A stretch of DNA of 64,000 bases from assembly GCA_000145985.1 (NCBI GenBank), contig CP002098.1, positions 1,530,501 to 1,594,500 of the forward strand, in the 5' to 3' direction. The position numbers and the translations under genes were made by a program. The notes beneath the pieces are model-generated. The model saw only the letters and a program-made list of their open reading frames with translations, was not told the DNA's origin and searched no databases. This DNA comes from Ignisphaera aggregans DSM 17230 (GTDB lineage: Archaea; Thermoproteota; Thermoprotei_A; Sulfolobales; Ignisphaeraceae). Position 1 is the stretch's first letter. Each line of letters begins with the position of its first letter. Positions 1,824 to 42,154 of this stretch are shown piece by piece.

Positions 1824-1832
1824 AGACTCACC

Positions 1833-2549: not shown

Positions 2550-2554
2550 ATATA

Positions 2555-3548: not shown

Positions 3549-3552
3549 AGCA

Positions 3553-4470: not shown

Positions 4471-4492
4471 GTTACCACCCTATCGCTATACT

Positions 4493-5672: not shown

Positions 5673-5773
5673 ATCTATCCCAATAATATATACAGCAGTA
5701 GCACAACAAAACCATTAAAATCTAGAGAGAAAAACAATAGAGACACATTCAACCCATTAAAAAGATGCACACC

Positions 5774-6043
5774 TTAAAAACCGGCAGTAATAGCAGTAGG
5801 CCTTCTAAATATGTATATAAAGAATGAGAAGAGGATGTGGAAACCAATAACAAGAAAAACAATAGCTAGTACAAGGAGAGCTATATAGAGATACAGATTA
5901 TCTATAGATCTAGAGTATAGAGAGATGTAGAGACCTAGAAAAAGAGATGTAAAACCAATCAAAATAACAACTATGTGGAAAGCCTTTGAAACATTATGTC
6001 TAGGAGAAGATTTTGATAAAAAAATAGTTTTTGATATATACAT
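5774..6043 (-). CDS. Small two-helix membrane protein downstream of flaB
   Basis: 89 residues with two membrane helices (HIVVILIGFTSLFLGLYISL and LYIALLVLAIVFLVIGFHIL) and a short polar N-terminus. It starts 25 bases after the flaB stop with a TTAGGTG ribosome site, so it is likely co-transcribed with flaB. No family was recognised. Its position between archaellin and the regulator suggests an archaellum accessory or regulatory membrane role. Confidence 0.65.
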   Translation of the reverse strand: MYISKTIFLSKSSPRHNVSKAFHIVVILIGFTSLFLGLYISLYSRSIDNLYLYIALLVLAIVFLVIGFHILFSFFIYIFRRPTAITAGF

Positions 6044-6068
6044 ATCTTTGCACCTAACAGCACAGGCC

Positions 6069-16930: not shown

Positions 16931-17050
16931 ATGAAGTTGAAATGCCCTAAATGTGACTATATATGGGAATATAAGGGTAGGAATCCATACTATGCTACAT
17001 GCCCTAGGTGTTTGAGGAAGGTCAGCATAGCTAGGTATAGGGTTGAATGA
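16931..17050 (+). CDS. Small zinc-ribbon protein encoded by the insertion element
   Basis: 39 residues with two CPxC knuckles (MKLKCPKCDYIW and ATCPRCLRKV), forming a minimal zinc ribbon. Its stop overlaps the tnpB start by 4 bases (ATGA), so the two are translated together. Small zinc-ribbon frames of this kind accompany some crenarchaeal tnpB elements. It may act as an accessory or regulatory DNA/RNA-binding factor, but its role is unknown. Confidence 0.75.
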   Translation: MKLKCPKCDYIWEYKGRNPYYATCPRCLRKVSIARYRVE

Positions 17051-25288: not shown

Positions 25289-25699
25289 ATGAGTATTGTA
25301 AGAGAATTCAATAGTGTAGCAGAGCTTATGAAGTATCTAGACGATGAAATTGCAGAGCATAGGAGAAGACTTGGAGAAATGCTAAAGAAGCTAGAGGAGC
25401 TAAGGGTAAAAGCAGAACAGGAGAAAAAACTAAAATCTCTTCTATCTAAACTTGGTCTACCAGAAAGCTCTACACAAAATGAGATTGTGTTGAGGAGTTC
25501 AAGAATAGTTGTAAATCCAACACCTGCACAAGAGCTATCAGCTCTTGAAGCATCTATAGAGTCTCTAAATAATAGAATAACACAGCTTATGGCAATTAGA
25601 AAAGAGCTTGAGATTCTTGGTAATGTAGATGTTGAGGCAAGGGTAGTTGTTGTCTATGTAGATGGTCTTCCAAGGATAGTACTGTTAAAGTTTAGCTAA
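25289..25699 (+). CDS. Coiled-coil protein, unknown
   Basis: 136 residues. Two helical hairpin segments (about 10-50 and 80-110) with heptad pattern and a C-terminal beta strand pair (ARVVVVYVDGLPRIVLLKFS). GGAG sits 7 bases before the ATG. The shape recalls prefoldin-like proteins but no diagnostic residues are seen. Divergent from the gene at 24307. Confidence 0.7.
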   Translation: MSIVREFNSVAELMKYLDDEIAEHRRRLGEMLKKLEELRVKAEQEKKLKSLLSKLGLPESSTQNEIVLRSSRIVVNPTPAQELSALEASIESLNNRITQLMAIRKELEILGNVDVEARVVVVYVDGLPRIVLLKFS

Positions 25700-25735: not shown

Positions 25736-28700
25736 CTAGAACACCTCTTCCTCAATAGCAATTCTCTTTGTAATCATAGCTCTTATCCTCAGTCCAATGT
25801 ATATAGCTACACCTATACCAATCAATATACCTATTATTGGTAGAAATCTCTGTATATATGTAAGTATCGTTGGTCTTAGATATACTATCTCCTGTCTATC
25901 GCTATCTATATCTAACATAACATATCTAGTCTCATAATTTGGATGAGATATTTCAATTCTATAGCTACCAAATGGTATCTTTGTCGATATAGTGCCATAT
26001 TCATCTGTAACAAGCTTTGTAAATATATTCCCAGTTTCCTCACTTATTATAGTAATCTCAGCATTTCTAATAGGTGTCTCCCCCTCTAAGACAACAAATT
26101 TAAGTGTATACATATTCCTTGGAACTGGTATCTCTATAGATGTAGAGTTGAATAGATTTATAGTTATGGGCTTAGAGACACTATAAATCTTCGAGAATGC
26201 TGGCATTGGCGATACATAGACTGTATAGATACCACATGGAAGAGTTATATTTGTAGGGCCACCGATATTATCTATAATCTTTGTCCCATTTACATATACC
26301 TCGAATCTCCCTCTTAAAATACCTATTATAGTATCTTTTAACGATATACTAAGAATATATCTAACTCTATCTACCGTTATAGCAATAGCCTTAGGCCTAT
26401 CTACAGATAGTGATGCTCTAGACTCTGTATATATATATTCATATCCTTTTGCAGGTCTTACAACACATGTATAGTTTCCATATGGTAGTGAAAGTATTGC
26501 TCTGGGGTTAGAAGGATCTATAAGTATAGAGGGGCTAACTACACCATATATAGAGAGCTCTAGAGGTGCTATAACTCTTCCAACAACATCTCTAATATCT
26601 ATAATAACATCATATATTCTTCTATTTGGCGAATACTGTTTTACAGTATTTCCTACAATATTGATGGTATCCTCTATAACGTCATAGGCATTTTCATATC
26701 CTGATACAGGAGCTATTCTCAAAGTCCATACACCATATGGAACTATAATCGTTGTATCATTCCATACATCTGAGCTTACCAGAGTTCCATTAAGATATAT
26801 ATCCATTGGTGCAACAAGGTTCTTTGTATAGGTATCTGTAAGCGATATAGATAATGTATACCTCTTTCTATCAATCAGCATAGTTATACTAGTATCTCTA
26901 GCTATAGACAACGTATATTCTTTTGATGTATAGGCATTTTCATAGCCCTTAGCAGGTGCTACTAAAACACTATAGTTTCCATACGGAAGATCTACAATCA
27001 TACTTGCATTAGAGAAAACAATAGATGGTAGATTGGTGCCAAGAGATATATTTATAGGTACTATAGGCGGGGTATTTGTTAATGAATCAAGCAGTGTTAT
27101 AGCGACTCTATAGGTCTTTCTAATAAGTTTTATATCTAGCTCCATATCCCTATCTATGAATAGTTTTGTTGTATTACCCTGATATACAGCCTCATGCCCT
27201 GGTGCAGGAATAATCTCTATGTTGTGAGAACCATAGATTAGTTTCAATACTATTTTCTGAGCTGTAGAACTCTCAACAACTGTTTTTCCATCAATAACAG
27301 CTCTATAGGGAGCTATAGGACTTCCATCAAATTGATCCTTTATATAGAGGGTTAGATTATATTCCTTGTATCTCATAGTAACTGGAATCTCTATGTCTCT
27401 ACCAAGTCTATCCGTGGATAATGTTTTTGTTTCTGGCTGTATATATGGCTCATCATACCATATATCTATGCTATAGCTTACACCGGGTATAATATTGGGT
27501 ATTTCGATAGTTCCATTTTTAGAAGGTTTGAGGAGTAGATAGCCCTGTGAATATCTATAGCTAGATATGTATCCAGCTGGATAACTAAACTTTACATTAA
27601 CCTTATCATATGTTTCATTACCGGGTAGATATATTTTTAGTCTAAGGGTTGGAGCCATAATATCGTCTAGAGTTACAGGCTTCGATGAGAGTAACGCATA
27701 GAGATTAACAATAACAACAGCTTTTGTCTGACTAACCATTATACCCATAGAGAAATCTGATAGGATATCTGCATCTATATATCCATCAATAGTTGCAACT
27801 ATAGAGAGATTATTTCTTAGGAATGGCACTAGATATGGATCTATAGAGACTATCTGAATCCCATTAGATGTTATAGCTGCATATGCATATCCCTTAGCCT
27901 CTATATATGCAGAAAGCCTTTTCACAGATTCACCTACGTTGTATATATGTATAAGTGTATATCTATCTCCAACTAGTTGATAGGTCCTTATTCTTCCATC
28001 AGATAGAGCTATATGTAGAAACTGATTGCCTTTGTATACTATAGCATCTACACTCTCAACTTCTCTACCTATATGGTCTCTATCTATATAGTCATATTGA
28101 CTAACTACTGTTCTGAGTTCTCTACCAACAACAGTTATTTGATCTATATAGAGATAGCCATTTTGTGGACATGTATATATGAGTATATATCTATTTGCAC
28201 CTTCACTAGTAATGAAATGCAGACCCCTTATATTTACATCTAAACCTCTTGGTGAAAGAGCTACAGAGGTATAGCTATATGGAGCCGTAGAAACATCTAG
28301 GAGTTCTAGTGAGAGTTTAAGGAATTGTGGTACTCCATATATATCTATAGCATTATTTGTATTGGGTTCTCCAAAAAGCTTTACACTATACACAAATACA
28401 TTCTTCTTTGGCATTATCAACTGTGTTGGTGTCACAGTATAGAAGAATAGTGTGTTTCCAAGAATATCTCTAATAGTTATATTTGCATATGTTCTATCGC
28501 CATATAGTAGTGGTATAGGTATTCTTGCTACACCATTAGAATCAGCATTTACGCCATATACAGTACGCTGTTCTCTAGGTGCTGATTTGTCATAAACCAC
28601 AACCTCTACCAATGTATTTGGTGCAGGGACATAGGTGTTATTTACATGCATAGAGATGTTTAGTACTACAGTTTTTGTTGCAAGGGTATATGCTATTAGA

Positions 28701-29371
28701 AGTCTTGAAGCATTATAGTATATCTCAGAAGAGGTGATAACCTTTAGAGGAGCCATATCATATACATCAATACCTGAATAGGTGATTGTGACATCGCCTG
28801 GATCAGAACCTATTCTTATCATTCCTTTTCCATCCTCATTAAATATATAGATGAAGCGTATTTGCTGAGAATCATGGACAAGTGCTGCTACTACGAAGCT
28901 CCCTGTAGCTGTTTTCATAATAGCTAGTTTATCTACATAGAAATCTGCTCCAAGTATTGTATATAGATATCCTACTATTCTACCGCCATCGACATTGAAT
29001 AGAAGTATCTCTCCCTTTGAGGTACCTATAGCTATCCTCTTAACAGGAAAGCCATTTGTTGCTGCAACTGTTGGCTCTCCTACCAATGGATATATCTGTC
29101 TCTCTGTAAGTCCTTTGTATGGATCTATAATCCTCATTATCACAATAGCATCTGTGCCATTCACTTTTCCAGCAAGTATAAAGCTACTGCTATTAATCAT
29201 ATATACATATTTTGGTGCTATGTCAAATCCGGCTATATCAAATGTTATTGCATATGGTGTCTCTATATCTATAGCTCTACTGCTGGGTATGAGAGACATT
29301 GTTATTGTTATCAATATAGCTAGTGTTAGTGGAGTGACAAATAGTTTGTATATAGATCTCTTGAGCTCCAT
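25736..29371 (-). CDS. Giant cell-surface stalk protein with beta-propeller-like head and six PEGA-like repeats
   Basis: 1211 residues from the ATG at 29371 (AGGAG about 10 bases upstream; the TTG at 29380 is less likely). A signal peptide (LFVTPLTLAILITITMSLIP) opens the chain. Residues about 40-640 are beta-rich and propeller-like with an inserted Ig-like segment. From about 670 to 1175 come six tandem repeats of about 83 residues, each with an x-R-x-Y-x-L start and a central PYGxYxxxVxPxxGYExxY block (PEGA-like). A single membrane helix (FLPIIGILIGIGVAIYIGLR) and short basic tail end it. It is therefore a C-anchored extracellular stalk. It is divergent from T4P machine 3 (29464), suggesting an adhesin or secretion link. 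Confidence 0.8.
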   Translation of the reverse strand: MELKRSIYKLFVTPLTLAILITITMSLIPSSRAIDIETPYAITFDIAGFDIAPKYVYMINSSSFILAGKVNGTDAIVIMRIIDPYKGLTERQIYPLVGEPTVAATNGFPVKRIAIGTSKGEILLFNVDGGRIVGYLYTILGADFYVDKLAIMKTATGSFVVAALVHDSQQIRFIYIFNEDGKGMIRIGSDPGDVTITYSGIDVYDMAPLKVITSSEIYYNASRLLIAYTLATKTVVLNISMHVNNTYVPAPNTLVEVVVYDKSAPREQRTVYGVNADSNGVARIPIPLLYGDRTYANITIRDILGNTLFFYTVTPTQLIMPKKNVFVYSVKLFGEPNTNNAIDIYGVPQFLKLSLELLDVSTAPYSYTSVALSPRGLDVNIRGLHFITSEGANRYILIYTCPQNGYLYIDQITVVGRELRTVVSQYDYIDRDHIGREVESVDAIVYKGNQFLHIALSDGRIRTYQLVGDRYTLIHIYNVGESVKRLSAYIEAKGYAYAAITSNGIQIVSIDPYLVPFLRNNLSIVATIDGYIDADILSDFSMGIMVSQTKAVVIVNLYALLSSKPVTLDDIMAPTLRLKIYLPGNETYDKVNVKFSYPAGYISSYRYSQGYLLLKPSKNGTIEIPNIIPGVSYSIDIWYDEPYIQPETKTLSTDRLGRDIEIPVTMRYKEYNLTLYIKDQFDGSPIAPYRAVIDGKTVVESSTAQKIVLKLIYGSHNIEIIPAPGHEAVYQGNTTKLFIDRDMELDIKLIRKTYRVAITLLDSLTNTPPIVPINISLGTNLPSIVFSNASMIVDLPYGNYSVLVAPAKGYENAYTSKEYTLSIARDTSITMLIDRKRYTLSISLTDTYTKNLVAPMDIYLNGTLVSSDVWNDTTIIVPYGVWTLRIAPVSGYENAYDVIEDTINIVGNTVKQYSPNRRIYDVIIDIRDVVGRVIAPLELSIYGVVSPSILIDPSNPRAILSLPYGNYTCVVRPAKGYEYIYTESRASLSVDRPKAIAITVDRVRYILSISLKDTIIGILRGRFEVYVNGTKIIDNIGGPTNITLPCGIYTVYVSPMPAFSKIYSVSKPITINLFNSTSIEIPVPRNMYTLKFVVLEGETPIRNAEITIISEETGNIFTKLVTDEYGTISTKIPFGSYRIEISHPNYETRYVMLDIDSDRQEIVYLRPTILTYIQRFLPIIGILIGIGVAIYIGLRIRAMITKRIAIEEEVF

Positions 29372-29416
29372 GAACAACACGCTCCTAACTAATAGTAGTA
29401 GGCTACCGGAAGAGTA

Positions 29417-29463: not shown

Positions 29464-31092
29464 TTGTCTCTATCAGCCCTTGAAAAGATTTTCAGTAGAT
29501 TTAGGAAGAAGTCTAGTGAATCTGCTAAGCCTCAGGAAACTGTTCAGGAGTCTATTTTAGAGGATATGGAGTCTATAGCTAAGACTGAGCGTGTTACCCA
29601 TAAGCTCTACAGTATTCAGAGGGGCTATAGAGTTATAGAGTCTTACCCTGTTGCAGAGCCCTTTGCACATATAAATATCGTTGAGGAGGAGTCCACGGGC
29701 AGACTTTTTTATGAGGTTTACGAGATTTCTCTAAGTGATGAGGAGAAGAAGATATATGATGAGATTAGAGACCATATCATATGGGAGATAAAACCTGTTG
29801 CCTCTCTAGATGTAGATGTTGCTAGAGAGATTATGAAGACTGCTAGAAGAGTTATGAGGGAGTTCCAGATAAGATTTACAAAAACCCCTGGCTTGTCTTG
29901 GAGTAAGATTGGTTATTATATTGAGAGAGATTTGATTGGTTTTGGTGTTCTAGAGCCTATCTTCAGGGATAGACATATAGAGGATATATCTTGTAACGGC
30001 CCTGGAAAACCTGTCTATGTATGGCATAGAAAGTATGAGTATCTACCTACAAATATTGTCTTCGTTAGTTCTGAGGAGCTTGATGAATACATCCTTAAGT
30101 TAGCTCACATGGCTGGGAAACACATATCTGTTGCATACCCAATTCTAGACGCAATTCTCCCAGGTGGCCATAGACTTGCTGCAACATTTAGGAAAGAGGT
30201 TTCTACAGCTGGCTCTACATTTACTATAAGAAAGTTTAGTGAGTCCCCTATAACTATAGCTGATATGATAAACTATGGAACAATATCTTCGAGGATAGCT
30301 GCATATTTCTGGCTTGCAATGGAGTATAAAATGACTACTCTTATCCTTGGTGTAACAGGTGCTGGAAAAACATCTACCTTGAATGCTCTAGCAACACTAC
30401 TCAAACCGACATACAAGATTGTGACTATTGAGGATACACCAGAGCTTAGGATACCGAGTGAGAACTGGGTACAGCTTGTATCTAGACCTTCATATGTTGG
30501 TAGTGGTGTTGGAGAGATATCGCTATTCCAGCTGGTGAAGCTCTCACTTAGATATAGGCCAGATGTGATTATTGTTGGAGAGGTCCGTGGTGAGGAGGCA
30601 TATGTTTTGTTCCAAGCTATAGCAACAGGACACTCAGGTATGACAACGCTACATGCAGAGAGTATTGATGCAGCTGTAAAGAGACTTACTTCACCTCCTA
30701 TGAATATCCCGTCTTCCTATATACCCCTTGTAAATATTTCCATGGTTATAAAGAGGGTTCAGATAAGAGATGAGAGAGGTAGGGTTAGGCCTGGTAGGAG
30801 GATCACGAATATATGGGAGGTTAGAGACTATGAAGACTATATAGAGATTGCTAAGTGGAATCCTGTTGAGGATAGATTTGAAATAGATTTGTCTAAGAGC
30901 ATCGTCTTGCAGAGGATATCAGAGCTAACAGGTATGCCTATGGACAGCCTTCTAGAGGAGATAGAGACAAGGGAGAAGGTGTTGCTATGGCTGGTAAAAA
31001 CAGGTAGGACAGACTATAGAGGTGTTGCAAATACTGTGTATAGATACTATATAAATAGACAGGGGCTCTTAAAAGAGATTGGGCTGAGGTAG
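29464..31092 (+). CDS. Type IV pilus assembly ATPase (T4P machine 3)
   Basis: 542 residues. A polar N-terminal extension (about 1-60) leads to the secretion ATPase core: IEDISCNGPG block, Walker A GVTGAGKTS near residues 299-307, Walker B VIIVGEVRG near 367-375, and TGHSGMTTLHAES. The TTG start follows GGTG by 9 bases. It belongs to an operon with the platform protein and two pilins (31098-33828). Its sequence differs clearly from FlaI (129) and the ATPase at 11773, so it is a third separate filament motor. Confidence 0.92.
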   Translation: MSLSALEKIFSRFRKKSSESAKPQETVQESILEDMESIAKTERVTHKLYSIQRGYRVIESYPVAEPFAHINIVEEESTGRLFYEVYEISLSDEEKKIYDEIRDHIIWEIKPVASLDVDVAREIMKTARRVMREFQIRFTKTPGLSWSKIGYYIERDLIGFGVLEPIFRDRHIEDISCNGPGKPVYVWHRKYEYLPTNIVFVSSEELDEYILKLAHMAGKHISVAYPILDAILPGGHRLAATFRKEVSTAGSTFTIRKFSESPITIADMINYGTISSRIAAYFWLAMEYKMTTLILGVTGAGKTSTLNALATLLKPTYKIVTIEDTPELRIPSENWVQLVSRPSYVGSGVGEISLFQLVKLSLRYRPDVIIVGEVRGEEAYVLFQAIATGHSGMTTLHAESIDAAVKRLTSPPMNIPSSYIPLVNISMVIKRVQIRDERGRVRPGRRITNIWEVRDYEDYIEIAKWNPVEDRFEIDLSKSIVLQRISELTGMPMDSLLEEIETREKVLLWLVKTGRTDYRGVANTVYRYYINRQGLLKEIGLR

Positions 31093-31097
31093 TAGCT

Positions 31098-32888
31098 ATG
31101 TCTCAGGAGAGGATTAGGAGAGTAGGTAGAAGGGTGAGGCCCCCGACTGTTGGAGAGATATTTACAGCTCTATCACTAACACTCTTCGAGAGATGGGGTA
31201 GATCTCTTGCGAAGAGCTTTGAGTTTGAGAAACTTTTTGAGAGAGCTGGTCTCAATGTACATCCAGTTAAATATGCCTCTGAAACAATAGCTCTAACCAT
31301 TTTCTCAGCTATTTTCTCCATCGTCGGTTTTGTCCTTGTCTTTCTCTTTATACCTCTAAACATTATCCAGCTTATCCTGGGTCTTATGATAGCTGTTATA
31401 ATCCCCATAATGGTTTTTGTCTATAGACTTACAAAGCCATATATAATGATATCAAATAGAAAGAATAGTGTTGAGAGTGAGCTTCCTTTCTTCATGGCAT
31501 ATGTATCTACTATGGCTAGAGGTGGCTATAGCCTTGAGAAGCTTATTGAGAGAGTTTCACAGCTAAAGATTTTCAGCGGTATTAGGCTTGAGGCACAGAG
31601 GATTGTTACACATATGAAGATGTTTGGAGAAGACCCTATAACAGCTCTGGACAGAGTTGCTATGAATCATCCGAGTACAAGATTTAGAGATGTTATGCTT
31701 GGATATACAACTACCCTTAGATCTGGAGGAGATGTTGTTCACTATCTAGAGACAAGGACTAGAGAGGTTTTTGAGTCTAGAATGAATGAGATTAGAGCTC
31801 TCTTTGGGAGACTTGCATCATATCTAGAGGTATACACGGTCTTCGGAGTTATTATGGCTATAGCTGTCTTTATATTCTTTGCCGTCTCTGGAGCACTAAC
31901 AGCAGCACAAGCAGCTAGAATGTCTCCAGAGGGTCTAGAGAGTATACCTATAGATATCACTATGCCAGCTCTATTCAACTTCCTAGTCCTTCCAATGATG
32001 GGTCTAGCAATACTCTTAGTAACCCATATGACACAGCCAAAAACACCCGTAAGATTTGCAAAGCCGTATACAACTCTAGTCACATATCTCCCCGTGTCTA
32101 TAGCTGTATCCATATTGATACTTATTCTTGCTGGAGGCATAGATATATTTATGGGTAGACTTGGTCTGAAACAGGTAGAGGCAGCACTGCTCGCCTTCCT
32201 AGGAGGTATTCTAACAATATCTATACCTACATGGATAGCATATAGAAAGGAGGTAAAGGGTCACAAAGGTCTTGTAAAATCAACAGCAGATTTCCTAAGG
32301 GATCTAAGCGAGATTAGGAAGACTGGTCTAAGTCCAGAGAAATGCATTATACTTCTATCAGCCAGGAACTATAAAAATCTCACACCAGTTGTATCAAGAG
32401 CAGGTGCAGCACTATCCATAGGTCTATCTCTTGAGGAGGCTCTTAGAAAAGCTTTGAGGGGTGTGAAGGAGTGGTTCACAATAGCATCATTCAGATTTCT
32501 AACAGATTCTATCCTTGTTGGTGGAGGCTCTCCAGAGGTTATAGACACACTAGCAAGATTTACAGAGACTCTTAGTGAGCTTGAGGAGGAGACTAGGAGG
32601 AGGATGAGGTCACAGGTATTCCTACCATACTTTGGATCAGCAATGCTATCGTCTATGCCTATAATAATTCTATACATGCTTCTATCCATAGCAAACATAA
32701 AGCTTACAGCAGTTGCACCACTAATACTAATACTATCCCTCGGTGCAGCAATAAACTCATTCCTAATGGGTATAATAGCTGGAAAGGTAAGTGAATCAAC
32801 AGTTGCAGCAGGATTCAAACATGCGACAATACTAACAACAGTATCAACCATGATATCCATTGCAACAATAATGGTGCTAACAAGATGA
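31098..32888 (+). CDS. T4P platform protein, fused double T2SF (TadC/FlaJ-like)
   Basis: 596 residues with two T2SF units, each a cytosolic helical domain between membrane helices. The first is about 130-230 (FFMAYVSTMARGGYSLEKLI) and the second about 390-500 (FLRDLSEIRKTGLSPEKCII, LVGGGSPEVIDTLARFTETL). It is the normal archaeal full-length form, in contrast to the split pair at 13277/14191. GAGGT precedes the ATG, which lies 5 bases after the ATPase stop. It anchors the ATPase and inserts pilins into the filament. Confidence 0.92.
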   Translation: MSQERIRRVGRRVRPPTVGEIFTALSLTLFERWGRSLAKSFEFEKLFERAGLNVHPVKYASETIALTIFSAIFSIVGFVLVFLFIPLNIIQLILGLMIAVIIPIMVFVYRLTKPYIMISNRKNSVESELPFFMAYVSTMARGGYSLEKLIERVSQLKIFSGIRLEAQRIVTHMKMFGEDPITALDRVAMNHPSTRFRDVMLGYTTTLRSGGDVVHYLETRTREVFESRMNEIRALFGRLASYLEVYTVFGVIMAIAVFIFFAVSGALTAAQAARMSPEGLESIPIDITMPALFNFLVLPMMGLAILLVTHMTQPKTPVRFAKPYTTLVTYLPVSIAVSILILILAGGIDIFMGRLGLKQVEAALLAFLGGILTISIPTWIAYRKEVKGHKGLVKSTADFLRDLSEIRKTGLSPEKCIILLSARNYKNLTPVVSRAGAALSIGLSLEEALRKALRGVKEWFTIASFRFLTDSILVGGGSPEVIDTLARFTETLSELEEETRRRMRSQVFLPYFGSAMLSSMPIIILYMLLSIANIKLTAVAPLILILSLGAAINSFLMGIIAGKVSESTVAAGFKHATILTTVSTMISIATIMVLTR

Positions 32889-33277
32889 GGGGAATAAGCA
32901 AATTCCTAGTACTCATAATGCTTATAGGCATAACAATTGTTATAGCTGTTGCTGCAATAGCTCTCATACAATCATATATACAGAGCCTTTGGAAACCAGA
33001 GATGCTTAGAATAATAGAGGCAAGAATTATATATAGAGATAATAGCTACTATCTATACCTATATATGGCAAACGATGGAGATGTAAGGGCAGAGATATAC
33101 AAGATAGAGATATACCAGATGGAGACAAGAGATGTCAACATAGCTATAGATCCCCACAAAGAAGCCTCAGCAACAATACCACTAGAAAAAGAATATACCC
33201 TTGGAACAACATATAGAGCAAGACTATATCTAAAAACAGGAACAATATACTTCAAAGACATAACAATAACATCATAA
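32885..33277 (+). CDS. Pilin-like protein of T4P operon 3
   Basis: 130 residues with an N-terminal helix (FLVLIMLIGITIVIAVAAIALI) after MRGISK and a beta-sandwich outer domain (YYLYLYMANDGDVRAEIYKI). This is a typical minor pilin. Its ATG overlaps the platform gene stop by 4 bases (ATGA), showing tight coupling. No Cys. Confidence 0.75.
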   Translation: MRGISKFLVLIMLIGITIVIAVAAIALIQSYIQSLWKPEMLRIIEARIIYRDNSYYLYLYMANDGDVRAEIYKIEIYQMETRDVNIAIDPHKEASATIPLEKEYTLGTTYRARLYLKTGTIYFKDITITS

Positions 33278-33351
33278 AGACGCCCACCAGAAGCCCACAA
33301 CCACAAAACTTTTATTCTCCACACAAATGAGTAATCTAGGGGTAGATACAT

Positions 33352-33828
33352 ATGAAGCTCTCAAGAGGTATAGAACCAATAATAGCAACAATAATAATAG
33401 TAGCAGTAACACTAGTAATAGCAATAGCAGTAATAGGATGGATAATGGGCTGGTGGGGAGCACTAACAGGAGGACAAGAAATGCTTCAGGTATTTGCTGA
33501 TAGCCGCCTACGTATTACATCACCAGATGGAAACCAGGCTGAGGCAGAGATTCATGTTGCTAACAAAGGTGGAGCAACAGCAACGATATATAAGGTAGAG
33601 ATCGCTGGAACAGACTGTAAGGCTGAGACTGGTGATTTTGATACTAAAGATCTCTCAAAAGATACTGCTGGTAATATAGTTGTTCCTCCAGGCAAAGACG
33701 GAACATTTACAGCATCAATTACCTGTAGTTCAAGTAGTCTTACTCCTGGAGCTACATACAATGTAAAGATATATACAAAAGGCGGGAGCACTCTATCCAT
33801 AAATCTTGTTGCAGAACAAGCACCATAA
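33352..33828 (+). CDS. Type IV pilin, probable major subunit of T4P machine 3
   Basis: 158 residues. MKLSRG precedes IEPIIATIIIVAVTLVIAIA, a canonical archaeal class III signal and pilin helix. The outer domain has one Cys pair (TDCKAE, SITCSSSS) and ends in LVAEQAP. The stop codon is followed in the same frame by 18 more low-complexity codons (see 33829-33885), so the ancestral protein was probably longer. It closes operon 3. Confidence 0.88.
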   Translation: MKLSRGIEPIIATIIIVAVTLVIAIAVIGWIMGWWGALTGGQEMLQVFADSRLRITSPDGNQAEAEIHVANKGGATATIYKVEIAGTDCKAETGDFDTKDLSKDTAGNIVVPPGKDGTFTASITCSSSSLTPGATYNVKIYTKGGSTLSINLVAEQAP

Positions 33829-33885
33829 CCAACAGGAGGATCATCATCACAGCAGCAACAACAACCATCATCAGGAGGAGGATAA
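33829..33885 (+). other. In-frame coding-like tail after the pilin stop codon
   Basis: Directly after the TAA at 33826-33828 the same frame reads PTGGSSSQQQQQPSSGGG and ends in double TAA. The Ser/Gln/Gly-rich tail looks like a genuine flexible pilin C-terminus. It suggests a recent nonsense change or some readthrough. Confidence 0.6.
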
Positions 33886-33946
33886 TAATCAACATCAAAA
33901 TAGCTTTAAGTACAAGAAAATATTTTTAATCCAATTATTTTTATCT

Positions 33947-34084
33947 CTATAGATGCTCCATATACTCTAACAGATTCTTTCTATATATGTGGTCTAGGGA
34001 TTCTAGCCCTTGTATCTCTCTAATCCCTTCTATATGAGTTATGGTTTTGCTAAACCCATCCTGTTTTCTTATTGAATTAATATA
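33947..34084 (-). pseudogene. Gene remnant, unknown family
   Basis: A 40-plus-codon stretch ending in TAG (33947-33949) reads like coding sequence (KTITHIEGIREIQGLESLDH and RKNLLEYMEHL), with no start and stops just upstream. It lies in a 1-kb region without intact genes. It may be the tail of a decayed gene related to the larger remnant next to it. Confidence 0.4.
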
Positions 34085-34184
34085 GTCTATTCATATGCTA
34101 TACACTGATTATCAAGGTGTTATAGACTCATCATTTACCCTTTCACACGGTGTTTTCCTTTGTGAATGGATAGACTGTGAGAAT

Positions 34185-34924
34185 TCAATATAGCTTTAGA
34201 ACTATTCTCCTCCTATCATCATCCCTACTCCCTGTAGCTCTAGCCTTAGAACCTGTATCTACAGCTCCAATCTCTTTCCCAGGCTTTGGAGAACCTATTA
34301 GAGATTCTGCAAATTCTATATAATCATTAACATCATATTCTCTTAACCCAGCAATATCCTTCTGTCCTAGTGGTTAGGAGAGCATCTCTTTAGATGGGCT
34401 AGCTACTCTACATAGAGATATCTATTCTTCCAATATACCCTTTTAGATAGTGTTTGTCCTACACTAGTCCTTCTAAGAATTGATGAGCCACCATCTCTTT
34501 CATTTAATCACTCTCAATAAGTGTAAATTTGTACTCAGGGAATATAGAGCTATAACCACTGCAGGTATTAAAAGTAATAGGATTAGAAGTGTCTATCCGC
34601 TTAAACACCTACACACCTTCTTTATAAATCTCCTAGGGTCCCAGGTATTGCAATCTTATAACCTGTAGCATGAATAGTTCTTCCCACATAGCAAAACTGC
34701 TCTATAGACAGGAAACAGCTATATTTTCTAGAGTTACTTCCTGCTAGACCCTTATGCTATATACTGTTCAGAGAATCCTTTGGAGCTACACCCTCTATAT
34801 ACTTGATGCCACAAGATATATAGATATCCTCATCTCGATAACCCCAACCAGTTTTTGTATACATAAAAGCTATGTATATAGCTATTGATATCGCTATAAC
34901 TATCAACATGTATCTGTATCTCAT
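34185..34924 (-). pseudogene. Decayed gene for a membrane-anchored secreted protein
   Basis: Reading on the minus strand, ATG at 34922-34924 opens MRYRYMLIVIAISIAIYIAF, a signal anchor, then polar sequence up to a stop at 34757 (55 residues). Coding-like segments continue in other frames: SRKYSCFLSIEQFCYVGRTI, then GGSSILRRTSVGQTLSK, and finally KDIAGLREYDVNDYIEFAES down to a TGA at 34185-34187. Several frameshifts and stops separate them. The original was probably a pilin-like or secreted protein of about 230 residues. It lies between two surface-structure loci, so it was likely part of them. Confidence 0.6.
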
Positions 34925-34955
34925 CTAGATCCCAATCCCTATATGCTTGGAAAAA

Positions 34956-34964
34956 TTTATATAA
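34956..34964 (+). promoter_or_regulatory. TATA box of the beta-propeller gene
   Basis: TTTATATAA followed 20 bases later by TTAGGTG (34985-34991) and ATG at 35000. It decides the start: an in-frame ATG at 34943 lies upstream of the promoter and cannot be used from it. Confidence 0.65.
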
Positions 34965-34999
34965 GGCTATATAGAATGTTTTTCTTAGGTGTGCTTAAT

Positions 35000-36043
35000 A
35001 TGGTTAGCATCATTTGGAGTGTCTCTAGTAATCCTAGTCGTTATAGGGATGGTGTTAGTGGTATTTGTCTTCTTGGTGATAATATATATGTTGTTGGTTT
35101 TTCTGAACCTGTATCCCTAGGTGTTCAGAGGTATAGGGTTGAATCTAGGAGAAAGTCTGATGGGTCTATCATAAATAGTTGGATTAGTGATGAGAGCTAT
35201 AGATATGGGTCTCTATATAGCTGTATAGCTATGGGTAGTAGGATATATGTAGCTGGTGCTTCTATAGGTTTCTGGGATCTCTATGAGTTTTCACCAGAGC
35301 TTGGACTTATTGATCATAGAAGGTTTGAGGAGAGTTTTATACCTTTTTCAATGGCTTCTAATGGTAGGGATATATATATTGCTGGTACATATATTGGGGA
35401 GGTTTATGAGGCTAGAGTTATAAGGATATCTACCCCTGGTCTAGAGATTAGTGCTATATATAGATCTCTTAGCAAGCCAAGCTCATTCTATGGGGTTGTA
35501 TATAGTGAGTCAAGTAAGAGAGTTGTTGTTGGAGGATATGACTCTGCTGATGGTTTTCAGAAATGGAGAATAGAGTTTCTTAGTCCAGAGCTAGAAGTTG
35601 AAAGAGTTATAAGACCTGATGTTAGGGGGTGTATAACTGGAGTGTCAGTAGGAATTGATGGAGATATATATGTAGTTGGAAGAATGGGTGTTATGAGGCT
35701 ATCGGGTGGTGGAAGAATCATTGCTGAGAATAGAAGAATCGGAGGTATAGAGATATATACACCAAAAACCCTTGGAACAAGTCTAGGTGATAATATAGCT
35801 GTTATAGATCACAACACTATACATATACTAGATAGAAATAATCTAGAGACTAGAGAGACTATAAGAATAGCTAGAGGGCTTGAAATAATAGCATTCCCCT
35901 ACAACAGCCCTGTATACGATGGAACATATCTATATGTAGCAGGAACAGAGAGTAGCTCTCCAGAGAACTGGAACTGGATAATAATGGCTATAGACCCAAG
36001 ACCGAGGAGAATCCCAATTAGAATGCCTAGAATACGTATATAG
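35000..36043 (+). CDS. Beta-propeller protein without signal peptide
   Basis: 347 residues from ATG 35000, beginning MVSIIWSVSSNPSRYRDGV. Repeated units with a G-x-x-I-Y-V-V/A-G strand (DNIYVVGFSE, SRIYVAGAS, RDIYIAGTY, GDIYVVGRMG, TYLYVAGTES) about 45-60 residues apart suggest a six- or seven-bladed propeller. There is no signal or membrane segment, so it is probably cytosolic. It is divergent-facing to the five-gene pilin-like operon (36079-42154) by convergent orientation. No enzymatic motif seen. Confidence 0.75.
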   Translation: MVSIIWSVSSNPSRYRDGVSGICLLGDNIYVVGFSEPVSLGVQRYRVESRRKSDGSIINSWISDESYRYGSLYSCIAMGSRIYVAGASIGFWDLYEFSPELGLIDHRRFEESFIPFSMASNGRDIYIAGTYIGEVYEARVIRISTPGLEISAIYRSLSKPSSFYGVVYSESSKRVVVGGYDSADGFQKWRIEFLSPELEVERVIRPDVRGCITGVSVGIDGDIYVVGRMGVMRLSGGGRIIAENRRIGGIEIYTPKTLGTSLGDNIAVIDHNTIHILDRNNLETRETIRIARGLEIIAFPYNSPVYDGTYLYVAGTESSSPENWNWIIMAIDPRPRRIPIRMPRIRI

Positions 36044-36078: not shown

Positions 36079-36705
36079 CTAGCCAACCTTAATACTATAT
36101 GTCTTCACGATATATGGAGTATTATCGATAATGTTAATGATATGTATATTTATCTCTCTCGATATCCCTATAGATATGGATAGAATTGTTGCACTAGGTT
36201 CAAAAGAATCTATATAGCATATATAGCCATATCCAGGGGGTGTAGAGCTATATCCATATATCTTTGCATATATGTTATATGGAATAATGCCGCTTTCCCC
36301 AAGAGCATATACACCACTTGTAAATGTAGCAGGTTTAGAGGGGCTACAGTCACCATCATTTGAACACATTATACCGTCTCTATCCCTACTATAGTTATAG
36401 ACAAAAATACTGTTACACGATATATATGTAGAGCTACTACTACCAATAGCCTCTACAGCTATGAAGAAAGGTCTTCTCATATTATCTAATCTCTTTAGCA
36501 ATACCCATTCATATCCATTTACAGTATCTGTAGCTATAGGCTTTAAAACAATATTTGCAGATTCATAGACAAGAGTATCAACAATATTCACTTGTGATCT
36601 ATAGCTGTTAAGCGTAGATATAAAGTATATAGCCATAGCAGTCCCGAGAATCAAAGCAAATGCAACAAGAATCATTGTTGTTAGAAAACTTGCCTGTCCC
36701 CTCAT
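36079..36705 (-). CDS. Small pilin-like protein B of the giant-pilin operon
   Basis: 208 residues from the ATG at 36705, chosen because AGGTGAT in the stop region of the upstream gene is its ribosome site. MRG then QASFLTTMILVAFALILGTA is a class III-like signal and helix. The outer domain has conserved Cys (YISCNS, MCSNDGDC) and ends in NTPYIVKTYSIKVG. It is a paralogue of the first gene of the operon (41525), sharing the RRPFFIAVE / Cys / NxPYxI pattern. Last gene of the five-gene unit. Confidence 0.8.
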   Translation of the reverse strand: MRGQASFLTTMILVAFALILGTAMAIYFISTLNSYRSQVNIVDTLVYESANIVLKPIATDTVNGYEWVLLKRLDNMRRPFFIAVEAIGSSSSTYISCNSIFVYNYSRDRDGIMCSNDGDCSPSKPATFTSGVYALGESGIIPYNIYAKIYGYSSTPPGYGYICYIDSFEPSATILSISIGISREINIHIINIIDNTPYIVKTYSIKVG

Positions 36706-36710
36706 AACGA

Positions 36711-38369
36711 TCACCTATATAGAGCTATTGCACCTATAAACTCTACACCAACAGTAACATCAGCATCATTAGTACGTCCACTTCCATAAGGATCCTGAAA
36801 CTCTATAGCAACCCAATACCTTCCACTAGGTGGTAGAGGCACATAGATACTCTGTGATATCTTAACAAAATAGTTATCATTGACAAAATCTGTTATACGT
36901 GTCTTATGATAGTTGCATATCTCCTGATACCTATACTCCCTAACAATATATGTATTGCCACTAGAATCATATAGAATAACCCTCAAAACCCAGTCAGTTC
37001 TACCAATATCCTGAAGCTGTTGTTCATCTGGATAAGAGTTGTCATGGAAGAATATATTCATAAGCAGATACACCCCTGAATACACAGATCCATCTATAGA
37101 GCCATCACCATATCTAAGCCTCCTACCCACTTGGAACAGTGTCAATCTGAGGGGTACTGTGGACCAGTCAGAAAGATCGTCATTGCCATAGTAATCATCT
37201 ATACTGTCATATGATCCATAGTAAGCATCCTCAGTAACAAAAACTATGTCTGCCAAGCCATTCCCATCTACATCACCTATAAATAGATATGGATTATAGC
37301 TAGTTTCTCCAACACCTGCCTGACCAGATGATATTCTCTCATAATATGCAGCATATGTTGCCAAACCACTGATATATAGCCTTAGGTTAGAGTCTGTAGA
37401 TCCATAGTACCAAAAACCTGTTGCATTTCTAGCAACATTACCACATCTCCCAGGAGAACTACTGCTACAAGCAATAACATTACTATCCTTTGAACAATCA
37501 TCTCTACAAATCTTTATAACACCAGTAAAATTGTTTATAACAAGCCTAAAGCCCTGGCCCGTCAAAGGCCTCTCACGATTACCTATAGACACCTTGTCTG
37601 CTCCACCTTGAGTAAAACTCGGTCCTGCAATCATTATTCTAAACTGTGGTGATATCTTCATACCATTATCATTTTTTGCTACCCATGTAGGGTCGTAGCC
37701 AATTACAGCAACACCAAATCTAATACCCTTGTCGTCTGTAGATACAGTAAAGGGTGTAGAGCTATTCCAAATACTATTTTCTTCTTGTCCTGGTGGAAGC
37801 AGTAGAAGTCTGCTTCCAGTCATACCAGTTAGATTCCTTCTATCTCTTGTATATGCTGTTAAAACCATGTTTGGAGGAACACCAAACTCTTTTGATAGAT
37901 CATCTATGTAGACTATATTGCTAAATGTTATAGACATTATATTCATTTGCTGTAGAGGTGGTGGAGATGTAGATGAAGGTCTTATTCCGTGTCTAGGATA
38001 AACAGTTATGCCATCTGATGTAACTATGCATATCAGATTCCACTGCCCTAGATCCAGAGTTTTAAAATACCCTGGTTTTAAAGCTATATATGTTCTGTTT
38101 ATCTGTATATAGCTGTTTTTCTCAAGAACTAGATACTCGACAACTGTTTCTCTAAGTCCAATATTTGTTAAATTTGCTGTAGATCCATATACAATGACAT
38201 CTATATTTGTATCGCTATATCTATCTATATACCTAGCCATATTATTCATATAGCTAGATATATAGATAGATCTATATCTCTGGATATCAATAAACATAAA
38301 CATGAAAACTGATAGCAATACTACTGAGATTAGAAATCCTAGAAGTAGTGATGATACAGCTCTCCTCAT
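36711..38369 (-). CDS. Giant pilin-like surface protein 3 with shared C-terminal domain
   Basis: 552 residues. MRRA followed by VSSLLLGFLISVVLLSVFMF is a pilin-type N-terminus. A long extracellular region follows. Near residue 363 is GDVDGNGLADIVF, a Ca-binding D-x-D-x-N-G-x-x-D loop. The C-terminal domain (about 345-552) includes FFHDNSYPDE and ends with IEFQDPYGSGRTNDADVTVG. The same domain recurs in the two upstream genes. The start overlaps the previous gene by 4 bases. Size is two to four times that of normal pilins, so it may be a tip adhesin or a thick-filament subunit. Confidence 0.8.
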   Translation of the reverse strand: MRRAVSSLLLGFLISVVLLSVFMFMFIDIQRYRSIYISSYMNNMARYIDRYSDTNIDVIVYGSTANLTNIGLRETVVEYLVLEKNSYIQINRTYIALKPGYFKTLDLGQWNLICIVTSDGITVYPRHGIRPSSTSPPPLQQMNIMSITFSNIVYIDDLSKEFGVPPNMVLTAYTRDRRNLTGMTGSRLLLLPPGQEENSIWNSSTPFTVSTDDKGIRFGVAVIGYDPTWVAKNDNGMKISPQFRIMIAGPSFTQGGADKVSIGNRERPLTGQGFRLVINNFTGVIKICRDDCSKDSNVIACSSSSPGRCGNVARNATGFWYYGSTDSNLRLYISGLATYAAYYERISSGQAGVGETSYNPYLFIGDVDGNGLADIVFVTEDAYYGSYDSIDDYYGNDDLSDWSTVPLRLTLFQVGRRLRYGDGSIDGSVYSGVYLLMNIFFHDNSYPDEQQLQDIGRTDWVLRVILYDSSGNTYIVREYRYQEICNYHKTRITDFVNDNYFVKISQSIYVPLPPSGRYWVAIEFQDPYGSGRTNDADVTVGVEFIGAIALYR

Positions 38370-39850
38370 TGTCTACCACCTAGTACTACACCCATATACT
38401 CTATACCGAAGATTATATCTGCATCGTTTCTATTACCAGAGACACCATAGGGATCTACAATCTCTATAGCAACATAATATGTTTTGCTGCTTGGACTGGA
38501 AGGTACATAGAGTAGAAAGTCTTTGACTATATATGAAACAGAAAACGGTTTTACAGATCTATATCTACATAGCTCGTAGTAGCTGAGAGATGTTGAATAT
38601 ACAAAGCTATTGGAGCTAGGGTCATATAGCCCTACCCTAAGTATAACCCTGTTATCATTATCGCTAATATCGTTTTGTGAATTATCCCAGTAGAAAAGTC
38701 TTAGGCTAACAATAGCGTTTGCATATCTATTGCTATCTATTGGGAGATCCCTAAACACTATTCTCAGCGGTGTTATTGAGTAGTCAACAACATTGTATGA
38801 AGAGATTATGTCATTCACGGTGTTACTATTACCCACAGTGAAGTCCTGTGTAGCGAATATGTACTCTGGATACCCATTTCCATCTAGATCTCCTACAATG
38901 TAGTAGGGATCCAGACCCACGACACCCCATGTAGCTCTAGAGCTGTTTGTATATATAAGTACCCTATCTGCAGATCCACTCAATATAACTGTACATGTTT
39001 TATCTGAATTTATATAGCATGGATATATGCCTTGCCCAGCATTTGTGTTGCCCAGCTGTATGGATCCTGTAAAGTTTATGATCTTTATCCTATATCTATA
39101 GAAACCAGCTCTAGACAAATCATAGCTCTTCCCACCAATAGAGATGCTATTTGTTGTACCTCCCAAGGCTCTTGAACCAACTATCAAGATATTATATTTG
39201 TTTGTACCTACAGATGTTACTATTGCTAGAGCAACACTCTGAAGATTTGCGTTAATAGTTCCAGATGTATTTAGATTAAGCACCATGTTAATAGATGTGT
39301 TTATAGCACCTTCAGCTAGAATCCTTGGGTTCTCTAGATATCTAACTAAGCTAAAAACAATATTCCAGGTCATTAGAGGTGTTGTGGGGATATATGGTGC
39401 TGGTGGTGGGATAGGGATCTGTTGCTCAGGATATATAATCCTTACAATATTTAGTGCTGAACCTGTTCTAGCTATAAATGCCACTATATCTAGATCTGAT
39501 GAACATAGAATTCTCGTTCTATTGTTAGGCTGGATAAGAGTATTGCCACATATTTTAGCGATATTCACAAGCTTTGGAGCACCACCGATATAAGCTATAC
39601 CTAGATCTAGAGATACTGGATATGGCCCAAGATTCCTCACAATATACTCTCCATTGCCACTATATACAATCTCTATACTGCTATACATACCAACCTCTGG
39701 GATATCGAGTCTAGGTGTTTCTAGAGACTTTGGAATAGAGGATAGAACTATATAATATATACCGAGGAGAAACATTGTAACTATGGTAAAAGCTATTAGT
39801 GCTGCAATAGCTTCGCTTACAGCCCTCTGAATTTTTATCCCAATAACCAT
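38366..39850 (-). CDS. Giant pilin-like surface protein 2 with shared C-terminal domain
   Basis: 494 residues. KIQRA then VSEAIAALIAFTIVTMFLLG is a pilin-type signal. A Pro-rich hinge (IPIPPPAPYIPTTP, about 147-160) separates an N-terminal beta domain from the rest. Near residue 318 is GDLDGNGYPEYIF, a Ca-binding loop. The shared C-terminal domain contains FYWDNSQNDI, then ELCRYRS, and ends in IEIVDPYGVSGNRNDADIIF. Preceded by a GGTGATGGTGAG ribosome site that overlaps the stop of the upstream gene. Confidence 0.8.
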   Translation of the reverse strand: MVIGIKIQRAVSEAIAALIAFTIVTMFLLGIYYIVLSSIPKSLETPRLDIPEVGMYSSIEIVYSGNGEYIVRNLGPYPVSLDLGIAYIGGAPKLVNIAKICGNTLIQPNNRTRILCSSDLDIVAFIARTGSALNIVRIIYPEQQIPIPPPAPYIPTTPLMTWNIVFSLVRYLENPRILAEGAINTSINMVLNLNTSGTINANLQSVALAIVTSVGTNKYNILIVGSRALGGTTNSISIGGKSYDLSRAGFYRYRIKIINFTGSIQLGNTNAGQGIYPCYINSDKTCTVILSGSADRVLIYTNSSRATWGVVGLDPYYIVGDLDGNGYPEYIFATQDFTVGNSNTVNDIISSYNVVDYSITPLRIVFRDLPIDSNRYANAIVSLRLFYWDNSQNDISDNDNRVILRVGLYDPSSNSFVYSTSLSYYELCRYRSVKPFSVSYIVKDFLLYVPSSPSSKTYYVAIEIVDPYGVSGNRNDADIIFGIEYMGVVLGGRQ

Positions 39851-39860
39851 ATTCTCACCA

Positions 39861-41522
39861 TCACCTATAGAGTATAACTGAAAATGAATCTATGTATAGA
39901 CTTATATCTAGGTCATCCTTAGTGCCACTCCATCTATATGGATCTTGGAAAGCTATAAACGGGTAAAACCTCTTGCTAGAGCTATTCTTGGGTATGGGTA
40001 TAAATATAACAGCATTCTGTATCTGGGCAACAGGTGGATATGTATCTTCATATCTTGTAAGTTCTCTAAAGGTGAAACTTCTATATCCAATGATATTACC
40101 ATTTTCATCAGCTATACCAACAACCATAACAACACCATCATATGAAGCATCATTATAATCATCACCAGAATTATCATGAAAAGCATAGGTAATAAGTATA
40201 GATACACCAGATACAGTATTATCTATAACAAGATCGTTACCCATATAAACAAATGCTATGGGCATAGAAGAGCCATCCTGAAGCTCAGCAACACCTTCAT
40301 CAGTAGAGCTCTCATCACCCCAACGTCTATCTATAGTAGTAAATAGAATTCCAAGCATATTACCAGTAGGCTTATTGCTAAACATTGTTATATACGGATA
40401 ATAACCTGTTTCACCACTTGATGTCCTCCTTCTACAGAGTATCTCAACACGATCAGCAACTCCATTCAAAGTTCTCAAAGTCCCACTACTAGTATAGCCA
40501 AGAAATACATATCTAGCTACATTCTGATCAGGACTATTAATCCATCCACTATATGTTGTTCCACTAACCTGCATAATTCCATCTCTGGTGCTGTTTCTAA
40601 ATCCATAGATCCTAACTCTAAAACCTATGTCTTGCCAAGAACCGCAATATGTCACCCCATTTATCCTTATGCTACCATCACCTGTAAGAATAATGATATA
40701 TTTATCTGGTGTTTTGTCGTAGCCTAGATATATGTTTCTCACATATTGATTTGATATCTGTATGGTTGTCGATGTTAGGTTTCCTACCGATACCCATACA
40801 TAGCTGTTTCTTCCAACCATACCTTTTTTATATAGTATTTCATTAGGATCTGGGATAAAGATTATTTTTGTCGGCATATTCATGTTGTCTACAGTTGCAA
40901 TTCTAAAACCTTTGCCGAGTAATTGTGTGATATTCCATGTGTTTCCACTTGGGTTTATAGCTGTTGGTAGAAGTTGTGGTGCTACTACACCTGGTGAATA
41001 TTGAGGTATAGATGGTGTTTCTGAACCACTTCCTGGGCTCTGATATTCTTCCTGTGGATTATATATCTTTGCTGATACTATATAGCCATCACTTGTTACT
41101 ACATATACTCCATTCACGTTATACTGTGTACAATCAATATATTTAGTAATGTCTATGTTGCGTGATATTGTTTCTCCTGAAGCTATATAGATGTTGTTGA
41201 ACTCTCTTGGTGTAACCATATAGTATCTATCTCTACATGTTATAGCGATAAATACTCTCGATATATCTATCTGCCTACCACCAATGTTCCTAACAACTAT
41301 AGATATATCTGTACTTGTCGGTAAATATATGGCAGATACATTTAGTGTCCCCTCTGCAACAAATCTACCAAGCTCTGCAACAGACTTCCTATTCTCCTCT
41401 ACTGCGGGCTGTTGATAGCTGGTATAAATCTTTGTGTAGAGTGTGTATGCAAGTGGCAGTACCACCATGAGTATCATTGAGAATGCTATTATGGATATAA
41501 TTATGTCGCTCTGACCCCTCAT
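39861..41522 (-). CDS. Giant pilin-like surface protein 1 with shared C-terminal domain
   Basis: 553 residues. MRG then QSDIIISIIAFSMILMVVLP is a pilin-type signal. A beta domain with Cys pair (ITCRDR, DCTQYN) follows, then a Pro/Ser-rich hinge (about 160-185), a lectin-like beta region, and the shared C-terminal domain with FHDNSGDDYND, ELTRYEDT and IAFQDPYRWSGTKDDLDISL. It lacks the Ca-binding DxDGNG loop of its two paralogues; the equivalent site reads FSNKPTGNMLG. Starts 2 bases after the first gene of the operon. Confidence 0.8.
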   Translation of the reverse strand: MRGQSDIIISIIAFSMILMVVLPLAYTLYTKIYTSYQQPAVEENRKSVAELGRFVAEGTLNVSAIYLPTSTDISIVVRNIGGRQIDISRVFIAITCRDRYYMVTPREFNNIYIASGETISRNIDITKYIDCTQYNVNGVYVVTSDGYIVSAKIYNPQEEYQSPGSGSETPSIPQYSPGVVAPQLLPTAINPSGNTWNITQLLGKGFRIATVDNMNMPTKIIFIPDPNEILYKKGMVGRNSYVWVSVGNLTSTTIQISNQYVRNIYLGYDKTPDKYIIILTGDGSIRINGVTYCGSWQDIGFRVRIYGFRNSTRDGIMQVSGTTYSGWINSPDQNVARYVFLGYTSSGTLRTLNGVADRVEILCRRRTSSGETGYYPYITMFSNKPTGNMLGILFTTIDRRWGDESSTDEGVAELQDGSSMPIAFVYMGNDLVIDNTVSGVSILITYAFHDNSGDDYNDASYDGVVMVVGIADENGNIIGYRSFTFRELTRYEDTYPPVAQIQNAVIFIPIPKNSSSKRFYPFIAFQDPYRWSGTKDDLDISLYIDSFSVILYR

Positions 41523-41524
41523 AC

Positions 41525-42154
41525 TTACCCACCACCAAGACTATATTCAGATATCCTTATGGCGTAGGGAGCATTGTTCACAAATGTGAATAGATATATC
41601 CTTAGCCTACCCCCAGAATTTCCAAGGTCTATCCTAATCCATGTAACATCTGAGAAACTCGATGGCTCGACTCTACATATGTTGATAGAACCCTCGATAT
41701 CTGTTCCCTGTGATCTGAGAAAGGTTCTGAGGTCTATAACATCATTGCTATAGAGAACATTTACCCTATTCACTGGGTATATACCCATGGTGCTAGCAAC
41801 TATACACTCACCCTCTGTGCTACAAGCTGTATTATCATTGTTTATCTCATATACATAGGATGAAATAACACTACAATCGAGGAAGAATTGGCTGTTGTCT
41901 ATAGCTATATAGAATGGTTTTCTAGATCCATCAAGTCTCATAGCTATAAACCATGCATATCTATCATCACTTGCAACAAATCTTATTATCTGGCTATAAT
42001 ACTCCTGTTGTAGAACTGACATAAGATTTAGCCTATCTATATTTTGGCTAGATATAGAACTATAGTAGCTTACCAACCCAATACCTATAACTATAGCTAC
42101 ACCTGTGAGAATAATTATTGATAATATATCTGCCTGTGCCTTCTTACTATACAC
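41525..42154 (-). CDS. Small pilin-like protein A, first gene of the giant-pilin operon
   Basis: 209 residues from GTG (GGTAGAGAG upstream). KKA then QADILSIIILTGVAIVIGIG is a pilin-type signal. The outer domain has Cys in FLDCSV, TACSTEGEC and NICRVE. It is a paralogue of the last gene (36079): both share SRKPFYIAID / RRPFFIAVE, a Cys pattern ending in GEC or GDC, and a C-terminal NxPYxI. A TATA-like AATATAAAT lies about 40 bases upstream, so this is probably the operon promoter. Confidence 0.8.
   Translation of the reverse strand: MYSKKAQADILSIIILTGVAIVIGIGLVSYYSSISSQNIDRLNLMSVLQQEYYSQIIRFVASDDRYAWFIAMRLDGSRKPFYIAIDNSQFFLDCSVISSYVYEINNDNTACSTEGECIVASTMGIYPVNRVNVLYSNDVIDLRTFLRSQGTDIEGSINICRVEPSSFSDVTWIRIDLGNSGGRLRIYLFTFVNNAPYAIRISEYSLGGG

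Follow-up and report, generated by a model that had tools for sequence, protein, structure and literature searches.

The five-gene operon at positions 36079–42154 of the window (the whole 64-kb stretch of Ignisphaera aggregans AQ1.S1T DNA analysed here) is best explained as the genes for minor type IV pilus subunits with an adhesive role, among them modular pilins that would most likely be displayed at the tip, a reading to which we give a probability of roughly 0.6. Computation revealed a pilin unit, a homologous module grafted onto it, a conserved gene set and an association with the genes of a pilus machine; the pili probably owe a sticky tip or coating to the large proteins of the operon.

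Operon structure and pilin units

Open reading frames (ORFs) A–E all read from the minus strand, and the spacing between successive genes is 2, 10, −4 and −4 bases:

41525–42154, minus strand: A, small pilin-like protein, 209 aa; signal KKA/QADILS
39861–41522, minus strand: B, modular pilin, 553 aa; signal MRG/QSDIIIS
38366–39850, minus strand: C, modular pilin, 494 aa; signal QRA/VSEAIAA
36711–38369, minus strand: D, modular pilin, 552 aa; signal RRA/VSSLLL
36079–36714, minus strand: E, small pilin-like protein, 211 aa; signal MRG/QASFLTT

A sequence-only reading of the same DNA had described five minus-strand genes with small gaps or overlaps, and each of these ORFs was found in its place; it had also taken the two small end genes for paralogues, in agreement with the phmmer match between A and E (E = 1.6e-20). 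The three central proteins, hereafter called giants, have their C-terminal part in common (pairwise E = 2.6e-30 for C–D, 1.1e-15 for B–C and 1.2e-15 for B–D), D being the best conserved among them, and a search of the whole genome with C returned C itself, B and D only. The shared module had been put at about 200 residues; the sharing stands but the length does not, as the conserved sequence extends over ~270 residues and the folded module over ~410.

Class III signals, which had been ascribed to all five proteins, were evaluated by a rule modelled on the FlaFind pattern (a charged residue, G/A at −1, allowed residues at +1/+2 and a hydrophobic run). A–E conformed to it without exception (5/5), as against 22 of the 529 remaining ORFs of the loci analysed. 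By the same rule signals were found in 49/73 giants and 27/40 small partners, many of the misses being truncated or one-position variants. The genome contains one prepilin peptidase candidate. A profile built from 71 giants matched, over its positions 9–136, the complete archaellin chain 8fk7 (E = 1.8e-7), covering the helix and the 'N-x-G' sandwich or head, and it also matched the neighbouring PilA-like pilin 2 (33352–33828, E = 1e-6).

Structure prediction, suggested as a check in the sequence-only reading, resolved D (AlphaFold, mean pLDDT 91.4, pTM 0.77) into a helix, a beta-sandwich, a linker and an all-beta module, the linker (residues ~121–143) being of low confidence and flexible, with the lowest stretch noted at 130–138:

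38010–38369, minus strand: pilin module of D, residues 1–120; helix 2–53, beta-sandwich 56–117 (AlphaFold)
36714–37940, minus strand: grafted all-beta module of D, residues 144–552; jelly-roll-like by fold (AlphaFold, Foldseek)

The predicted structure of A (pLDDT 94.4) is compact, with a 52-residue helix (3–54) followed by a beta-sandwich head; no structural relative specific to A was found, the only matches being generic sandwiches, none of them at E ≤ 0.001. Both predictions have the long N-terminal helix and succeeding beta-sandwich head of the archaeal type IV pilin superfamily, and D has the architecture of a modular pilin, its pilin unit (1–120) being joined to a separate globular module (144–552). 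The signals, the archaellin match and the two models thus bear out the pilin-like character assigned to the operon. On the strength of the archaellin and pilin profile matches and the predicted architecture of D, B, C and D are taken to be ordinary pilin units (~120–135 residues) with a large attached module rather than enlarged pilins.

The C-terminal module and its loop motif

The module of the giants had no match in Pfam, NCBIfam, PHROGs or the PDB sequences, so that it represents, at sequence level and relative to these libraries, a new family; its candidacy as a known lectin, adhesin or enzyme family was dropped on the same searches. The sequence-only reading had not recognised the domain and had named its placement in a well-described family as one outcome that would count against its proposal, and the family and profile searches placed it in none; as to the second such outcome, a lack of signal-peptide processing, the signals of all five proteins are plausible. 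By structure, Foldseek matched the module to jelly-roll domains, namely Eph receptor ligand-binding domains, CBM4-2, FBG3 and the gingipain K2 adhesin domain, over ~185–205 alignment columns (residue ranges being absent from the output) and with probabilities up to 1.0. Since E-values were weak (mostly 1e-3 to 1e-2, one ≤ 0.001) and TM-scores by target were mostly 0.3–0.5, the similarity is one of fold only: the module is alike to galactose-binding-like jelly-roll domains (Eph ligand-binding, CBM4-2, gingipain K2) with no sequence relationship to them. With respect to domains from outside pilus biology, the module may correspond to a jelly-roll by fold, and no sequence family was found for it. 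The galactose-binding-like jelly-roll is very common, and its presence therefore does not allow the function of the module to be deduced.

Alignment of the giants exposed the module's most striking motif, PY-x(3-4)-(G/A)D-x-DGNG-xx-(E/D)-xxF-x-TED, which the sequence-only reading had not listed. Its GDxDGNGxxE/D core resembles the FG-GAP-type or dockerin-type Ca2+ loop:

38864–38890, minus strand: Ca-loop-like motif of C, DLDGNGYPE, residues 321–329 (alignment)
37248–37274, minus strand: Ca-loop-like motif of D, DVDGNGLAD, residues 366–374 (alignment, AlphaFold)

In the AlphaFold model the motif of D is the turn linking predicted strands 362–366 and 374–378. The GDxDGNGxxE/D pattern is kept in 44/55 of C, D and their single-copy relatives (single-copy giants 20/23, D 13/16, C 11/16) and in none of the 16 B orthologues, showing that it was lost in the B line only. 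Later Asp residues (D336, D356, D389, D466 and D476 in C numbering) are highly conserved in all groups of giants. In C and D the module probably depends on a bound metal, perhaps calcium, for its stability, and the presence of the loop in C, D and single-copy giants together with its absence from B suggests that the three copies have divided their tasks.

Distribution and evolution of the cassette

Of the 229 class genomes searched, 43 contain giants; 398 genomes sampled across the phylum added two giant-bearing genomes from outside the class (G513 and G424). In the tree of giants, D, B and C form orthologous clades of 16 rows each (support 100/100, 100/97 and 99/92, respectively) that span four families, with single-copy lineages standing beside them. 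The triads seen all have the gene order B–C–D, and B, C and D are three orthologous lines of old standing whose order has stayed fixed. In 33 of 41 loci the giant has a small pilin-like gene within 250 bp, encoded on its own strand in 28 of them; several of the remaining 8 loci have an unclustered ~200-aa neighbour, a small pilin recognised by direct comparison, or a contig edge. The small-pilin tree gave family groupings much like those of the giants' tree, although some parts of it are weakly resolved.

Four Ignisphaera genomes are without a giant; three of them are 98–99% complete (G124, G125 and G129) and two of these (G125 and G129) have the platform protein, from which the cassette is judged to be an accessory of the pilus. 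The genomes sampled from family f9, which are large (2–3 Mb), yielded no giants. Family f8 has a single giant that is still larger (761–878 aa; loci L042, L044, L046, L050, L051 and L052). In other Ignisphaera the cassette includes an additional small-pilin form of ~400 aa, into which a domain of ~190 residues is inserted (L034 379–1587, L058 12729–13913, L060 5222–6460 and L063 255–1439); homology of this domain to the giants' module was rejected, as profile comparison aligned the N-terminal helix only. Two further candidates were discarded: recurrent neighbours c7–c11 in family f3 look like housekeeping rather than pilus genes, and a viral origin of the giants found no relative among viral contigs and phage records, the viral Foldseek matches being generic tail-fibre-like beta-domains.

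Association with a pilus assembly machine

Of the five secretion ATPases above the Pfam cut-off in the genome, three lie in the window (561–1307, 12349–12936 and 29968–30693). The last belongs to a small type IV pilus unit beside the operon, listed here with a divergent neighbour:

29464–31092, plus strand: secretion ATPase (T2SSE) of the likely assembly machine (Pfam/NCBIfam models)
31098–32888, plus strand: platform protein (T2SSF, UpsF/FlaJ-like; family models)
32885–33277, plus strand: pilin 1, UpsA-like, below the NCBIfam cut-off
33352–33828, plus strand: pilin 2, PilA/UpsA-like, probable major pilin
25736–29380, minus strand: beta-rich protein of 1214 aa, with a membrane helix predicted from sequence at its C-terminus; divergent from the adjoining ATPase gene

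The sequence-only reading had proposed that the operon borrows this ATPase and platform. Giants adjoin homologues of the machine (29464–33828) in G132, G102 and G117. In G112 and G113 a small pilin, the giant, a pilin, the platform and the ATPase form a single same-strand run, while G066, which G067 resembles, has a same-strand run in which a more distant platform gene precedes the giant. The two genomes outside the class have a same-strand run of pilin, platform, small coiled-coil-like protein, ATPase, ~195-aa small protein and giant, the ~195-aa protein of G513 matching the Pfam class III signal. Co-occurrence, which had been proposed as a further check, was computed with the platform: a close homologue is present in 34/43 giant-bearing and 54/186 giant-less genomes (odds ratio 9.2, Fisher p = 2e-9, a value that ignores relatedness, for a set including a few fragmentary matches). 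For these two reasons adjacency is the stronger argument. In most genomes the giant cassette lies away from the machine, and a close platform homologue was not found in 9/43 giant-bearing genomes, some of which are incomplete assemblies. Taken together, neighbourhood or same-strand runs in several lineages and the co-occurrence make the ATPase and platform at 29464–32888 the likely assembly machine of the operon's proteins.

The Ups, Aap and bindosome type IV pili of Sulfolobales have a homologous ATPase, platform and small pilins. Scores against the NCBIfam cut-offs place the present machine as a related non-member of Ups (UpsF 112.6/400 bits, UpsA 52.8/130 bits), and those for the bindosome (BasE, BasF, BasB, BasC) were likewise below cut-off (BasE 284/1000, BasF 71.9/1300, BasB 16.1/230 bits).

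Several other genes of the window were recorded. The 1214-aa protein has a weak carboxypeptidase-regulatory-like repeat and homologues in 78/229 genomes, often adjoining the machine, and a 136-aa coiled-coil-like protein (25289–25699, plus strand) has relatives encoded in the pilus operons of further lineages, one of them outside the class. Between the pilins and the giants, region 33829–34942 has no long ORF and holds at 34766–34912 (minus strand) an apparent remnant of the gene for a ~400-aa multi-membrane-span protein (profile E = 1.6e-6 over 49 residues), whose intact form stands beside homologous pilus loci elsewhere (L058 4743–5957, L068, L069); it is followed by a 366-aa secreted-looking Kelch-like repeat protein (34943–36043, plus strand) that is also found beside the machine in L058 and L090. 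An archaellum-like cluster at 129–7268 (minus strand) has a T2SSE ATPase, a KaiC-like ATPase, a weak ArlX match and a 399-aa archaellin in which Arch_flagellin matches residues 12–149 only, so that a long C-terminal extension occurs here too; I. aggregans is recorded as non-motile (PMC3035270). A TnpB-like gene with a Cas12f1-like TNB domain (17047–18306, plus strand), probably of an insertion sequence, lies between pilus clusters.

Discussion

The closest known parallel is found in S. sanguinis, in which small PilA and the modular PilB and PilC have been modelled as a tip complex, both modules binding ligands (PMC8179133, PMC9934059), and the bulk of PilB has been modelled to fit at the tip only (PMC8179133). 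Like PilB and PilC, the giants combine a class III signal, a pilin unit, a short linker and a large C-terminal module, here of putative binding function, and they too come as several modular pilins with a small pilin partner. Unlike the vWA and ConA-like lectin modules of S. sanguinis, the module here belongs to another family and another domain of life, and it is common to three paralogous giants; binding and tip position are suggested by the analogy. CofB and GspK of bacterial T4bP and T2SS, large minor (pseudo)pilins proposed to lie at the tip (PMC8179133), resemble the giants in being oversized with extra structural domains, but these domains differ and no sequence relation was detected.

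Following this analogy, a single prepilin peptidase would cut the leaders of A–E, and the ATPase and platform at 29464–32888 would insert the proteins into a filament of which the pilins at 32885–33828 would form the greater part. A and E would be the small pilins that partner B, C and D in a hetero-complex, whose bulky modules would be exposed, with the tip as the likeliest site, and may bind a surface, a polysaccharide or a neighbouring cell. The Foldseek matches of the module include carbohydrate-binding and adhesin domains (CBM4-2, gingipain K2). I. aggregans aggregates on mono-, di- or polysaccharides (PMC3035270), which is consistent with an adhesin role as a correlate and is not evidence for it. 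Of the three roles put forward in the sequence-only reading, a thick filament, a tip complex or a surface appendage, the tip complex or adhesive display is by this analogy the best fit.

Other arrangements of the same parts were weighed. We consider it unlikely that the pilin-type proteins remain at the surface as a short bindosome-like platform, serving the uptake of captured saccharides or oligomers, with no long adhesive fibre: the ATPase does match the BasE model (below cut-off), the modules resemble carbohydrate-binding folds and the species ferments polysaccharides (PMC3035270), but no transporter or solute-binding domain was found in the proteins, and the adjoining UpsA-like pilins suggest a real filament. 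Somewhat less probable again is a thick pilus in which B, C and D alternate as bulk subunits along the whole fibre. Three co-maintained paralogues in fixed order would suit it, alternating-subunit archaeal filaments have been reported (PMC8821640), and the predicted flexible linker could permit lateral display; however, the machine has its own small pilins and is present in many giant-less genomes, a single giant is all that many lineages have, and the comparable bulk of S. sanguinis PilB was modelled as fitting at the tip alone (PMC8179133), so that the dedicated thick filament of the sequence-only reading found no support. It is highly improbable that the giants are membrane-anchored surface adhesins or S-layer-associated proteins that keep the N-terminal helix and never enter a filament, for although the cassette is mostly remote from the machine and nine giant-bearing genomes are without a close platform homologue, the archaellin and pilin matches of the N-terminal part extend across the head domain, the signals are widely conserved and same-strand runs with machine genes recur in distant lineages.

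Returning to adhesive minor pilins, an uncharacterised 'minor pilin set' of 3–4 extra components of untraced origin has been noted in Desulfurococcales ATPase subclade 4A, such components in pilus loci being proposed as minor pilins (Makarova, Koonin and Albers 2016, PMC4858521). This set comes from the same archaeal group and may be the Ignisphaera cassette, although that paper's main text names neither Ignisphaera nor these components and describes no module, architecture or orthology; the pilus itself can therefore not count as new. What appears to be new is the archaeal modular-pilin architecture, the module family, the old triplication with loop loss in B and the constant small partner; the literature searched, mostly outside subscription journals, gave no earlier description of an archaeal modular-pilin cassette.

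To our knowledge, the tip part of archaeal pili has not yet been seen. Cryo-EM of a Sulfolobus adhesion pilus led to the suggestion of a minor pilin at the tip, the tip itself not being reconstructed (PMC11178785). More tentatively than the adhesive role as such, and as less likely than not, we suggest a dedicated hetero-oligomeric tip complex of one or two small pilins and three paralogous modular pilins with fixed, divided roles and a new metal-dependent binding domain, which, if true, would be the first archaeal tip adhesin complex described. For the question of the archaeal pilus tip and adhesion the cassette provides named candidates, a gene set that is conserved and a module that is soluble and can fold. 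It suggests that archaea, like bacteria, make use of pilins to which a binding module has been grafted, here with an old triplication and the loss of the metal loop in one copy.
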